From Thermoplasmata archaeon (GTDB lineage Archaea > Thermoplasmatota > Thermoplasmata > UBA184): a DNA stretch of 5,082 nucleotides. Shown here piece after piece: positions 584 through 3,523 of this stretch; within the stretch, counting starts at the first letter, position 1; each line of letters begins with the position of its first letter. Location of the stretch: positions 1 through 5,082 of the forward strand of contig JAKAZU010000060.1 in NCBI GenBank assembly GCA_021826525.1, read 5' to 3'. A program made the translations under genes and the position numbers. Under the pieces are notes generated by a model. The model saw nothing but the letters and a program-made list of their open reading frames with translations. It did no database searches and was not told where the DNA came from.

Positions 584-596
584 GCAAACGTTAATG
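584..596 (+). promoter_or_regulatory. Weak candidate promoter element for the thiB operon
   Basis: GCAAACGTTAATG is the most AT-rich stretch between the inverted repeat and the riboswitch. A TATA-type element here would place the transcript start near 615-620, at the 5' edge of the TPP aptamer (618). The position is attractive but the match to a TATA consensus is poor. Confidence 0.25.
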
Positions 597-617: not shown

Positions 618-709
618 TCGCAGGGGGAGCTGTGAACCGGCTGAGAGGACGAGCACGCCTCGTCGACCCCAGGAACCTGCACGGGATAATGCCCGCGAAG
701 GGAACGCGA
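618..709 (+). promoter_or_regulatory. TPP riboswitch (thi-box) controlling the thiBPQ operon
   Basis: The thi-box signatures appear in order: GGCTGAGA (639-646), GAACCTG (673-679), GGGATAATGCCC (683-694) and AAGGGAA (698-704). Pairing fits the family fold. P1 is TCGC (618-621) with GCGA (706-709). P2 is GGGG within 623-627 with CCCC (667-670). P3 is AGCTG (628-632) with CGGCT (638-642). A facultative P3a hairpin is GACGAG (648-653) with CTCGTC (659-664). P4 is CCT (676-678) with AGG (699-701). P5 is CGGG (682-685) with CCCG (692-695). Thi-boxes bind thiamine pyrophosphate and repress thiamine synthesis or uptake genes. The location directly ahead of a ThiB-type gene confirms the assignment. 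No U-tract terminator follows, so control is probably translational. Confidence 0.95.
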
Positions 710-753
710 TGGACGAAGTGACCATCCTCTCCGCCGGTTCGCCGGAGGAATGA
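709..753 (+). CDS. Possible 14-codon leader peptide overlapping thiB
   Basis: An ATG at 709 opens MDEVTILSAGSPEE, which ends at a TGA (751-753) overlapping the thiB ATG in an ATGA junction. The start codon lies at the last base of aptamer stem P1. The only SD-like sequence before it is the conserved riboswitch segment AAGGGAA (698-704), so ligand binding could directly gate it. Its codons mostly end in G or C, like the neighbours. It runs through the hairpin that masks the thiB SD, so its translation would open that hairpin. The peptide resembles nothing I recognise. A chance ORF of this length is quite possible. Confidence 0.35.
   Translation: MDEVTILSAGSPEE
730..749 (+). promoter_or_regulatory. 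Hairpin sequestering the thiB Shine-Dalgarno (expression platform)
   Basis: TCC (730-732) pairs with GGA (747-749) and CCGG (734-737) with CCGG (742-745). A single G-A mismatch (733/746) separates them, and the loop is TTCG (738-741). The 3' arm contains the GGAGG SD (744-748) and abuts the thiB ATG. There is no downstream T-run, so a masking hairpin is likelier than a terminator. The SD lies only one base from the ATG, which is unusually close and suggests initiation helped by coupling to the upstream leader ORF. Confidence 0.55.
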
Positions 754-1910
754 GCAGCGCACCATCGAACGCGGCCGCGTCGCCGCGGCGATTGCGCCGC
801 CCGGGCCGCGCGAGCACGATCATCCTGATCGCGGCGGTCTCGGTGGTCGTCGTCGTCGCCGGCATCGGCCTCACGCAGTACTACTTCACCCCGACGCCGA
901 CCCTGACGATCTACACGTATTCGAGCCTCTTCGGCGGTACGTGCGGCGCCCCTGCGTTCTCGAAGGTCTTCGGGACCTTCGAGGCGGCGCATCACGTCCG
1001 CATCCAGGTCGAGTGTCCTTCCGGAGATCTGGCGAGCACGCTGCTCGCGCAGAAGAACTCGCCCGGAGCGGACCTCGTGATCGGACTGGACGAGATCACC
1101 GCGAGCCAAGCCGAGAGCCAGGGGCTGCTCGTCCCGTACGTTTCCCCCGCGCTCGCGACCGTGCCGGCCTCGTTGGTCCGGGACCTGAGCCCGGATCACG
1201 CCGTCACCCCGTACGAATACGGCTATCTCGGCATCGACTACAATGCGTCGTTCCGCACGATCACGAACGGCGCTATCGCGAACTCCTCGTTCCTGAACTT
1301 CTCGCAGAACTCCACGTGGGCGCGCCAGCTCCTCTACGAGAACCCCACGACCGACATCACGGGGGAGGAGTTCCTGGCTTGGGAGATCGAGTTCTACTCC
1401 GCGATCCTGCACGAGAACTGGCAGAACTTCTGGCAGCAGGTCCTTCCGTACGCTCCCAGCGCGCCCGACTGGTCGACCGCGTTCAACGAGTTCACCTCTC
1501 CTCCGGGAAACCCGCTCGCGGTCGTCAGCTACACGACCGACCCGGCGTACGCGATCGTCAACCCCGGCCTCGGGGCGTTCAACACGACCGTGACGAGCTG
1601 GAACCACACGCTCTACGGTTGGCAGACCATCTACGGGATCGGGATCGTCGCCGGGACGCAGCACCTCTCCCTCGACGAACAGTTCATCAACTGGTTCCTG
1701 AACGGGACGGTCCAGAACGAGATCCCGCTCAATGAGTGGGAGTACCCGGCGAACCGGACGGTCCCGCTCCCCTCCGAGTACCGCGGACTGATCGACCCGA
1801 ACTCGATCGTGCCGCTCAACGAGTACACGACCCCCTCCGCACTCGCCGCGAACATCGCGAACTGGCAGAACGAATGGCAGACCCTGGCGAACCAGTACGC
1901 TCCACCGTAG
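750..1910 (+). CDS. thiB: Thiamine ABC transporter, membrane-anchored substrate-binding protein (ThiB/TbpA family)
   Basis: This 386-residue protein binds thiamine or its phosphates outside the membrane and delivers them to ThiP. A basic N-terminus (PRRLRRPGR) leads into one hydrophobic helix (about 22-42). No lipobox cysteine follows, so it looks like an uncleaved anchor. The ThiB family pattern follows: LTIYTYSS (52-59), ADLVIGLDE (107-115), PYEYGYLGIDYN (154-165), VVSYTTDPAY (258-267), INWFLNG (313-319), NEWEYPAN (328-335) and NWQNEWQ (371-377). These are the counterparts of the LTVYTYDS, ADVVLGLD, PFDYGYFAF, VLSYTTSPAY and NWMYPV segments of E. coli TbpA. The related iron-binding FbpA family fits less well. 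Eight N-X-S/T sequons and a lone cysteine pair (65 and 89, possible disulfide) fit an extracellular archaeal protein. The ATG at 750 is the only in-frame start after the stop at 687. The gene follows a TPP riboswitch and overlaps thiP. Confidence 0.93.
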   Translation: MSSAPSNAAASPRRLRRPGRASTIILIAAVSVVVVVAGIGLTQYYFTPTPTLTIYTYSSLFGGTCGAPAFSKVFGTFEAAHHVRIQVECPSGDLASTLLAQKNSPGADLVIGLDEITASQAESQGLLVPYVSPALATVPASLVRDLSPDHAVTPYEYGYLGIDYNASFRTITNGAIANSSFLNFSQNSTWARQLLYENPTTDITGEEFLAWEIEFYSAILHENWQNFWQQVLPYAPSAPDWSTAFNEFTSPPGNPLAVVSYTTDPAYAIVNPGLGAFNTTVTSWNHTLYGWQTIYGIGIVAGTQHLSLDEQFINWFLNGTVQNEIPLNEWEYPANRTVPLPSEYRGLIDPNSIVPLNEYTTPSALAANIANWQNEWQTLANQYAPP

Positions 1911-3523
1911 ATGATCGGGGGGCGTGGCCGGTCCTCCCGATCATCGGTTACGTCCTCCTCTTCGCGCTCCTCCCGGTCGCCCTGCTGTTCGGTCAGGGGC
2001 TCTGGGCGGGAGGCGGAGCCGGCTGGATCGACGCGCTCACGCAGTCCCCGCTGAATCGGCAGGCGTTCGAGAACTCGCTGGAGCAGGGAAGCCTGAGCGC
2101 CGTGCTCGCCGTCGCCATCGGCTATCCGGCCGGCGTGTTCCTGGGCCGCTACACCTGGCCCGGTCGCTCCGCCGTCCGCGCCTTCCTGCTCGTCCCGTTC
2201 CTCCTCCCCTCGATCGTGGTCGTGCTCGGCATCCTCGATCTCTTCGGTCCGTCCGGCACCGTATCGAGCGCGATACCGGTCCTCGGGGTCCTGGGCCACG
2301 GCCTTCCGGCGATCGTCGCGGCGAACCTCTTGTTCAACGTCCCGATCGTGATCTTGTTCACGGCGCTCGGATGCGAGAGCGCCTCCTCGGAGCTGGAGGA
2401 AACAGCGGCGACCCTCGGGGGCGGTCCGACGCGAGCGTATCGAGACGTCTGGGGCCCGGGATCCTGGCTCGGGGCGGCGGCCGGTGGATTCCTGACCTTC
2501 CTGTTCAGCGCGGTCGCCTTCGCGACCCCACTCGTCCTGTGCGGAGCGCGATGCTACACGGTCGAGGCCCGGATCTGGTACCTCGACCAGTATGGGTTCG
2601 ATCCGACCGGTGCGGCTCTCCTCGCCCTCGCGCTCTTCCTCTTCCTCGTGATCCCGACGGCGATCTACCTCGTGCTCCTTCACCGGCTCCGCTCGTCGAG
2701 CTCGTCGGTCCGGACCCGACCGCGCCCGGGACGCGTCCGTTCGCCCCTCGCCTACGCGCTCGCCGCGGAGACGATCGCCCTTCTGGGAGCGGTCGCGTTC
2801 TTCCTCGGGACGGTGCTCTATCGTTCGTTGAGCCCTCCGGGAGGAGGGGCGTTCGGCGCTCCGTGGACGGAACTGTTCGGTCCCACCGCGACCCACCTTC
2901 TCGGGATCCCGCTGGTCCAGGTCCTCGCCAACACCCTGTTCTTCGCGGCGGTCGCGGCGACGATCGTGCTGCTCCTCGGGATCGTGGCCGGCTACGCGCT
3001 CGGAGCTCGGCCGCGGCTCGCTACGGGCCTGTCGCTGTACCTGTTCCTCCCGCTCCTGATCTCGCCGGTGCTTCTCGCGTTCTCGCTGGCCGAGTTCTGG
3101 CGGCCCGTGCTCGGCGGGGAGTCGACCGTGTGGATCCTGATCATCGTCAGCCAGTCCATCCTGGCGCTCCCGTTCGCCCTCCAGAGCCTCCAGATACCTC
3201 TCGCCGGGCTCTCGCCCGCGGCTCGAGATTCCGCACGCGTGCTCGGGGCCCCGGCCTGGATCGCCTACCTCGACACCGATCTCCCCCAGGTCCGTCGCGG
3301 ACTCTTGACGGCCGGGCTCTTCGCCTTCGCCTTGGGGCTCGGGGAGTTCACCGCGACGTACTTCCTCGTCACTCCGAACTTCGCGACCCTGAGCGTCGCG
3401 GTCTACGATCTCCAAGACCTGCGCCAGTTCCCGCTCGCGGAGGCGGCGGCAGGGCTGCTGCTCCTGGTCAGCCTCGCCGTCTTCGCGGCGGTGAACTATG
3501 GAGGCAACCGTGCCGAGCTCTGA
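1874..3523 (+). CDS. thiP: Thiamine ABC transporter permease (fused two-domain ThiP)
   Basis: This 549-residue integral membrane protein forms the transport channel. It is close in length to E. coli ThiP (about 536). I count about twelve hydrophobic segments in two six-helix halves (roughly 22-268 and 294-541), joined by a Ser/Arg-rich linker (271-290). Each half has the EAA-type loop that docks the ATPase: ETAATLGGGPTRAYRDVWGP near 176-195 and DSARVLGAPAWIAYLDTDLP at 452-471. Fused permeases of this form are typical of the ThiP and FbpB/AfuB branch; the thi-box and ThiB neighbour decide for thiamine. The ATG at 1874 is used because no other ATG, GTG or TTG lies in frame between the GTG at 1736 and the end of the first helix. 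It has no clear SD and overlaps thiB by 37 bases, so coupled translation is likely. The end overlaps thiQ. Confidence 0.92.
   Translation: MADPGEPVRSTVDDRGAWPVLPIIGYVLLFALLPVALLFGQGLWAGGGAGWIDALTQSPLNRQAFENSLEQGSLSAVLAVAIGYPAGVFLGRYTWPGRSAVRAFLLVPFLLPSIVVVLGILDLFGPSGTVSSAIPVLGVLGHGLPAIVAANLLFNVPIVILFTALGCESASSELEETAATLGGGPTRAYRDVWGPGSWLGAAAGGFLTFLFSAVAFATPLVLCGARCYTVEARIWYLDQYGFDPTGAALLALALFLFLVIPTAIYLVLLHRLRSSSSSVRTRPRPGRVRSPLAYALAAETIALLGAVAFFLGTVLYRSLSPPGGGAFGAPWTELFGPTATHLLGIPLVQVLANTLFFAAVAATIVLLLGIVAGYALGARPRLATGLSLYLFLPLLISPVLLAFSLAEFWRPVLGGESTVWILIIVSQSILALPFALQSLQIPLAGLSPAARDSARVLGAPAWIAYLDTDLPQVRRGLLTAGLFAFALGLGEFTATYFLVTPNFATLSVAVYDLQDLRQFPLAEAAAGLLLLVSLAVFAAVNYGGNRAEL
3500..3504 (+). 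promoter_or_regulatory. Shine-Dalgarno deciding the thiQ start
   Basis: GGAGG lies inside the last codons of thiP, five bases before a GTG at 3510. It overlaps the last base of the alternative ATG (3498-3500), so it cannot serve that ATG. It therefore favours GTG as the thiQ start. Confidence 0.6.

Follow-up and report, generated by a model that had tools for sequence, protein, structure and literature searches.

Ordinary thi-boxes that mask a Shine-Dalgarno sequence (SD), such as that of E. coli thiM, cover the gene's own well-spaced SD and have no leader ORF. Fungal TPP riboswitches work via splicing and upstream ORFs (uORFs), and these eukaryotic uORFs inhibit. A different logic has been described for the B12 riboswitch of M. 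tuberculosis ppe2, which, in the part of the report drawn on here, controls a uORF, uPPE2, with termination-reinitiation shown using reporters (PMC11260477). Such a handover of ribosomes is also found outside riboswitches: as given in the section of the study used here, of 14 cases examined in H. volcanii and E. coli, in which gene pairs overlapped as ATGA or TGATG, 13 showed strict coupling (PMC6728339). A review describes uORFs that merely deliver ribosomes, and in the sections of it used here the word riboswitch is absent (PMC12548453). TPP riboswitches ahead of thiB have been found in metagenomes, and the description in the portion of the paper used here includes no leaders of the ppe2 kind (PMC2211319). 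Among the matches listed in the open-access literature, we found neither an archaeal riboswitch nor a prokaryotic TPP riboswitch described as acting via a leader ORF.

We examined a stretch of 5,082 nucleotides from a Thermoplasmata archaeon, referred to here as the window. On its minus strand lies pdxS; its other features are a TPP aptamer, the genes thiB, thiP and thiQ, and the beginning of a gene for aconitase. The named relatives of its ThiB are Thermoplasmata archaea, and no relative was found in viral contigs. The features of the thi operon and its leader are as follows.

586 to 596, plus strand: promoter-like element of archaeal type (BRE/TATA-like), AAACGTTAATG, lying 28-38 nt upstream of aptamer P2
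613 to 721, plus strand: predicted TPP riboswitch aptamer (RF00059; cmscan 60 bits, E 2.3e-10)
698 to 704, plus strand: AAGGGAA, an aptamer element and the sole (weak) SD-like sequence of the leader ORF
709 to 753, plus strand: leader micro-ORF (ORF B), 14 codons, MDEVTILSAGSPEE followed by a stop that overlaps the thiB start as ATGA
730 to 749, plus strand: hairpin before the thiB start, containing GGAGG 744-748 (local folds)
750 to 1910, plus strand: thiB, thiamine ABC transporter substrate-binding protein (TIGR01254 above cut-off)
1874 to 3523, plus strand: thiP-like permease, its inferred start being based on the length of a homologue with 99% identity
3498 to 4481, plus strand: thiQ-like ATP-binding protein

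The aptamer scores 60.0 bits against a gathering score of 54.3 bits, which identifies it by sequence and structure as a TPP riboswitch, and we would expect this predicted aptamer to bind TPP and to change expression in response. A first-pass annotation of this DNA had described a short ORF beginning at the end of the aptamer, with AAGGGAA as its only SD-like element, a stop overlapping the thiB start, and a thiB SD lying one base from its ATG within a hairpin. All of this anatomy holds in the sequence. The 14-codon ORF runs from 709 to 753, A709 being the final base of the Rfam P1 3' strand; no SD-like element other than AAGGGAA precedes it; and the thiB start is arranged as GGAGG 744-748, A749, thiB ATG 750-752 and leader stop TGA 751-753, with the hairpin at about 730-749 in local folds. 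The predicted thiB start itself is backed by an alignment of 15 ThiB proteins in which M1 is invariant. Further downstream, the apparent thiP start lies 37 nt within thiB (window 1874-1910), and this overlap reads GTGA in the relative L001 and GTAG in the window and L063.

We then asked how the locus looks in related genomes. Genome contigs were scanned by ThiB alignment, blind to the upstream region, and the best 80 of 89 loci were taken, nearly all of them titled Thermoplasmata. One of these, L049, was left out, having 121 nt of upstream sequence and no aptamer there; the remaining 79 loci and the window all carry the aptamer and, after dropping one duplicate, make up an unselected set of 79 distinct sequences including the window. 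At the exact place of ATG 709, a start codon was found in 77 of the 79 (72 ATG, 5 GTG), or in 78 of 80 before the duplicate was removed. The two misses are L064, which has GCC in this slot, and L073, where an ATG comes one base sooner and shares the thiB frame. The leader start slot is thus conserved beyond chance.

To this set we added 5 loci, a further 30 loci and 100 regions. When 400 genomes of the class were searched, which gave the 30 loci, 193 had the aptamer; because only the best matches were listed, this sample leans to high scores. The enlarged sample holds 185 distinct aptamer loci, 115 ahead of thiB and 70 ahead of other genes. The thiB loci are of three kinds. Leader loci (86) carry ATG or GTG in the slot, with the thiB start following 38-44 nt downstream, direct loci (11, including L073) have thiB's own start within 1 nt of the slot, and leaderless-linker loci (18) have neither, 17 of them being scored and the eighteenth, L064, having neither a start codon in the slot nor a placeable thiB start codon. 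Since the leader kind is defined by its ATG or GTG, conservation of the start codon is judged on the unselected set; among the 86 leader loci the codon is ATG in 80 and GTG in 6. On a ThiB tree of 113 rows, the three kinds need only 3 changes, and the leader rows form one clade save for L213 inside it. All locus counts given here are of related loci and not of independent events. L213 is leaderless yet nested in the leader clade, and it has a well-spaced SD. In L073 (L103 is the same locus), the leader has no stop before thiB and shares its frame, and leader and thiB could be one protein.

The relatives do not keep A709 paired in P1: the base is complementary in 22% of the 86 leader loci, and we therefore rejected the explanation that the ATG is kept merely because P1 pairs. 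An A/T-rich, promoter-like peak 28-38 nt ahead of P2 recurs across the 86 leader loci, which suggests that the mRNA probably begins at or near the aptamer. An upstream ORF running from ATG 608 through the aptamer was set aside by reading only, as this peak puts the mRNA start near the aptamer.

As at ppe2, a short ORF lies between aptamer and gene, and its stop overlaps the start of the gene. We found the leader stop between -5 and +23 nt from the thiB start in all 86 leader loci, with an NTGA overlap in 66 of them. The distance from slot to thiB start is 41 nt in 58 loci, 40 in 15, 44 in 7, and 38 in 6, and the thiB start codon is ATG in 67, GTG in 17 and TTG in 2; on the ThiB tree, the offset has changed at least 11 times and the start codon at least 9 times. 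Offsets 41, 44 and 38 share one frame (71 loci), while offset 40 puts thiB in another (15 loci). The fourth base of thiB follows this division: it is A in 66 of the 71 loci where the frame makes a leader stop of it, and in 0 of the 15 elsewhere. A tree-paired test of the frame-tied ATGA gave p 0.25, with too few independent pairs. The leader frame meets a stop ahead of thiB in 2 of the 86 loci (L027 and L191, where it ends 2 nt before the thiB ATG), although an open frame alone is weak evidence at this G+C, as frame +2 also has just 2 stops in the linkers. We rejected the possibility that the leader is a frameshifted N-terminus of thiB in the leader loci, given that M1 is invariant in the 15 proteins and that thiB is in another frame in all 86. 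The synonymous pattern that the first-pass annotation had proposed as a check proved weak.

To ask whether thiB could recruit ribosomes by itself, we scored SD matches against the 16S tail, which is GGATCACCTCCT in 5 of 5 relatives examined (16S recognised by eye), and took a match score of at least 5 at a spacing of 3-10 as a usable SD. A usable thiB SD is present in 22% of leader loci, versus 24% in shuffles, and in 17 of 17 leaderless-linker and 11 of 11 direct loci, that is, in all 28 orthologues without a leader (the leaderless-linker starts having been picked without regard to SD, on how far they lie from the aptamer). In leader loci, then, the main gene is without a usable SD of its own, as at ppe2, and the best match usually touches the thiB start codon, with a spacing between -2 and 2 in no fewer than 67 of the 86. 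For the leader itself, the best match is the AAGGG register in 82 of 86 loci. By the same yardstick this SD is weak, with a median of 4.75 and 3% of the 86 reaching 5, against medians of 4.00 for thiB and for shuffles. Because it is weak but in one register, leader initiation would hinge on an SD that is well placed but poor. In the direct thiB loci, the aptamer contains a strong SD, mostly GGAGGG.

The same slot is used ahead of other genes of the class. Fifty-two of the aptamer loci lie upstream of one transporter family unrelated to thiB (MFS_1 for the one tested), and here the main gene occupies the slot in 22, a possible leader does so in 29, and neither does in one (L188). The possible leaders, found among L090-L184 (for example L095, L097, L101, L114, L128 and L173), have 12-42 codons, and in 28 of 29 (not L167) they terminate within -4 to +14 nt of a main start codon that is in frame, a result favoured by our taking the nearest start codon as the main start. 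In 23 of the 29, the remaining frame has reached a stop by offset 23. A further 17 loci lie ahead of AIR-synthase-like genes (10, plus 3 resembling them by eye) and cytosine/purine-type permease genes (4), and include L107, L111, L121, L131, L156, L163, L168 and L170. In 0 of these 17 is there an ATG or GTG in the exact slot, and an ATG lies 3 nt off it in 7. Thirteen of the 17, counted by eye, have TTTTCAGC, a sequence complementary to the aptamer's GCUGAGA save for one G-U pair and likely to be a classical antisequestor in these loci.

The conserved slot, the frame-tied overlap of stop and start, the absence of a usable thiB SD where there is a leader, the use of the slot by main genes elsewhere, the recurrence of leaders ahead of MFS transporter genes, and the known coupling of ATGA pairs all favour the relay through a leader that the first-pass annotation had suggested. 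We put at roughly two in three the probability that the locus works as a TPP OFF switch at the level of translation, directly targeting the 14-codon leader ORF rather than thiB, with thiB reached by termination-reinitiation. At low TPP, ribosomes would bind the AAGGGA of the aptamer and initiate at AUG 709, pass through the hairpin covering the thiB start, terminate at UGA 751, and reinitiate at the overlapping AUG 750. When TPP is present, the aptamer (P4 and P1) would sequester AAGGGA and the bases just 5' of AUG 709, and no leader initiation would take place. With the leader untranslated, the hairpin would stay closed, and thiB, having no properly spaced SD, would not be made. The sequence of the peptide would hardly matter to such a device. 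We infer leader translation and reinitiation from the conserved anatomy and the missing SD, and the TPP-dependent step mainly because the leader start occupies the place that the gene start holds in direct switches of the class.

Folding models were used to look at both ends of this relay. The hairpin before thiB is more stable than its shuffles (mean z -1.60 over 80 distinct sequences, 71 of them below zero, versus -0.17 in thiB coding stretches). Swapping its arms between sister loci gave no significant difference (p 0.46): among 30 pairs, native arms did better in 17 and worse in 12. Over the 86 leader loci, the thiB start is closed in both modelled states, with a pairing of 0.65 free and 0.69 when constrained to the aptamer. 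The closing of the leader start that the relay would lead one to expect did not appear in these models: pairing at the AUG 709 site was 0.39 free and 0.44 constrained, less accessible in 40 loci and more accessible in 30. This, together with the weak leader SD and the sister-locus and tree tests that fell short of significance, counts against the relay. In a model of the window only, pairing of AUG 709 rises from 0.24 to 0.67 in the aptamer state.

The folds also brought out a second pairing partner for the linker.

634 to 649, plus strand: stretch of the aptamer complementary to 725-740 that may act as an antisequestor in this genome (MFE fold; duplex -44.3 kcal/mol)
725 to 740, plus strand: pairs with 634-649 in this fold and forms the 5' portion of the thiB hairpin

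Free window RNA folds with these strands paired, and in the window such a pairing is a plausible antisequestor according to the models. It would fit a classical direct switch, in which 634-649 pairs with 725-740 without TPP and frees GGAGG, TPP lets the hairpin at 730-749 mask it, and the leader is a bystander. The very strong complementarity in the window (-44.3 kcal/mol) speaks for this, as do the window's thiB SD, whose modelled pairing rises from 0.56 free to 0.80 with the aptamer, and the native aptamer-linker pairing over the 86 loci, which beats permuted pairing (mean -34.2 versus -32.4, z -6, kinship uncorrected). Between sister loci, however, native pairing was better than swapped in 18 and worse in 15 of 35 pairs, a comparison of low power in which the negative control, thiB codons, gave 18 and 17 of 36, and the positive control, P3, merely 9 and 4. 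Nor is there a well-spaced SD to be freed: GGAGG lies 1 nt from the ATG in the window and is absent in some loci, whereas all 28 leaderless orthologues have a well-spaced SD. A direct switch also leaves the conservation of the start slot and the frame-tied overlap unexplained, and we consider it unlikely. Less likely still are both layers combined, the aptamer strand loosening the hairpin while the leader ribosome supplies initiation; the long pairing in the window and the leader evidence would each find a place there, but the pairing register varies among the loci printed, and the sister comparison lends no support.

In a further rival reading, the leader would act through transcription. If untranslated leader RNA let the archaeal termination factor FttA stop transcription, thiB would be lost through polarity. 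Archaeal polarity is likely due to FttA according to the consulted part of a review (PMC12548453), and the M. tuberculosis Mbox, in the part of its description used here, joins translational control with Rho (PMC12810186). Against this, a simple scan, blind to FttA sites, found no terminator-like site in 400-1000, and the route would not require the NTGA overlap; we hold it to be very improbable.

Returning to the relay through the leader, we next considered whether its peptide is itself under constraint. Leader peptides differ between relatives, and so do not resemble the conserved peptide of an attenuator-type leader. Among near relatives (30 pairs), 67 of 109 single-change codons were nonsynonymous versus 76.1 expected, a small deficit (p 0.04, uncorrected and one of several tests) that neither of the other two frames shows. 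In the window, L063, L205 and L001, the 14 encoded residues are identical, and two synonymous differences separate the reading frames. With coding constraint this weak, we rejected a functional or stalling peptide; it seems, from these comparisons, to be translation rather than the peptide that is kept.

A further signal lies in a second frame.

689 to 721, plus strand: second short ORF (ORF A), 10 codons, with its AUG in aptamer loop L5 and its stop, TGA 719-721, within the leader ORF in the +1 frame

In the leader loci, the first stop in the +1 frame lies at offset 10 in 69, 13 in 12, 16 in 2, and 1 in 2, so that 85 of 86 have one within offset 1-16 (in L029 the first is at 379). Base composition predicts such a stop in about 10% of loci. 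It is present in 6 of 18 leaderless-linker loci, 6 of 11 direct loci and 23 of 70 loci ahead of other genes, controls whose genomes are partly A+T-richer. The codon at offset 10 is TGA in 29, TAG in 26, TAA in 15, and TGG in none, with 10.8 TGG expected from the bases, and the type of stop has changed at least 26 times on the ThiB tree. The L5 AUG, in the frame of this stop, is present in 76 of 86 leader loci; of the 10 that do not have it, offset -38 holds an in-frame TTG or ATG in 9 (as it does in 4 of the 76), and the tenth has an ATG at -74. Between -75 and -1, there are 94 AUGs in the +1 frame versus 2 and 2 in the others, mostly owing to L5. This conserved second-frame stop is a new feature that goes beyond the earlier observation, and it would either end ribosomes started inside the aptamer or be the first step of the relay. 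A relay in two steps, with ribosomes handed on first by ORF A and then by ORF B before they reach thiB, or a decoy stop there, would make the sensing domain itself a translated part of the switch, which we regard as doubtful, at about the same level as the direct switch or slightly below it.

How, then, does this arrangement compare with known systems? With thi-boxes of the E. coli thiM type it shares a TPP aptamer and, as proposed here, translation OFF. Fungal TPP switches likewise combine a TPP aptamer with upstream ORFs within a single leader; in the present case, ribosomes would instead be delivered by the leader. The TPP switches of the class in which the main gene starts at the aptamer end have the same aptamer, an embedded SD, and the same start slot, but that start is the transporter gene's own and the SD is stronger (GGAGGG). 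Archaeal termination-reinitiation pairs share the ATGA/TGATG coupling, although those covered in the part of the study used here are ordinary gene pairs with no riboswitch relay (PMC6728339). In the M. tuberculosis pe20 Mbox, as far as the consulted part of the report describes it, a riboswitch directly governs a small upstream ORF, rv1805A, but it responds to Mg2+, uses Rho-dependent termination, and has a highly conserved uORF with a homologue elsewhere, whereas the peptide here is barely constrained (PMC12810186). The first-pass annotation had called a relay through a leader unusual, and for this the ppe2 system is a precedent in kind: in the part of the report drawn on, a riboswitch runs a short uORF whose AUGA overlap hands ribosomes to a main gene without an obvious SD, in a translational OFF switch that is bacterial, responds to B12, and has a longer uORF (PMC11260477). 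The present system, as predicted from sequence, is archaeal, would respond to TPP, has 14 codons with the SD-like element inside the aptamer and the start at its end, and is clade-wide. Across that clade, the direct, leaderless and leader versions of one gene are natural controls, and the ribosome-delivery role of sequence-independent leader ORFs becomes directly testable; for annotators, such genes may hide leaders. What is new here, on the predicted anatomy, is an archaeal, clade-wide arrangement of riboswitch and leader, the principle of which is already known in bacteria.
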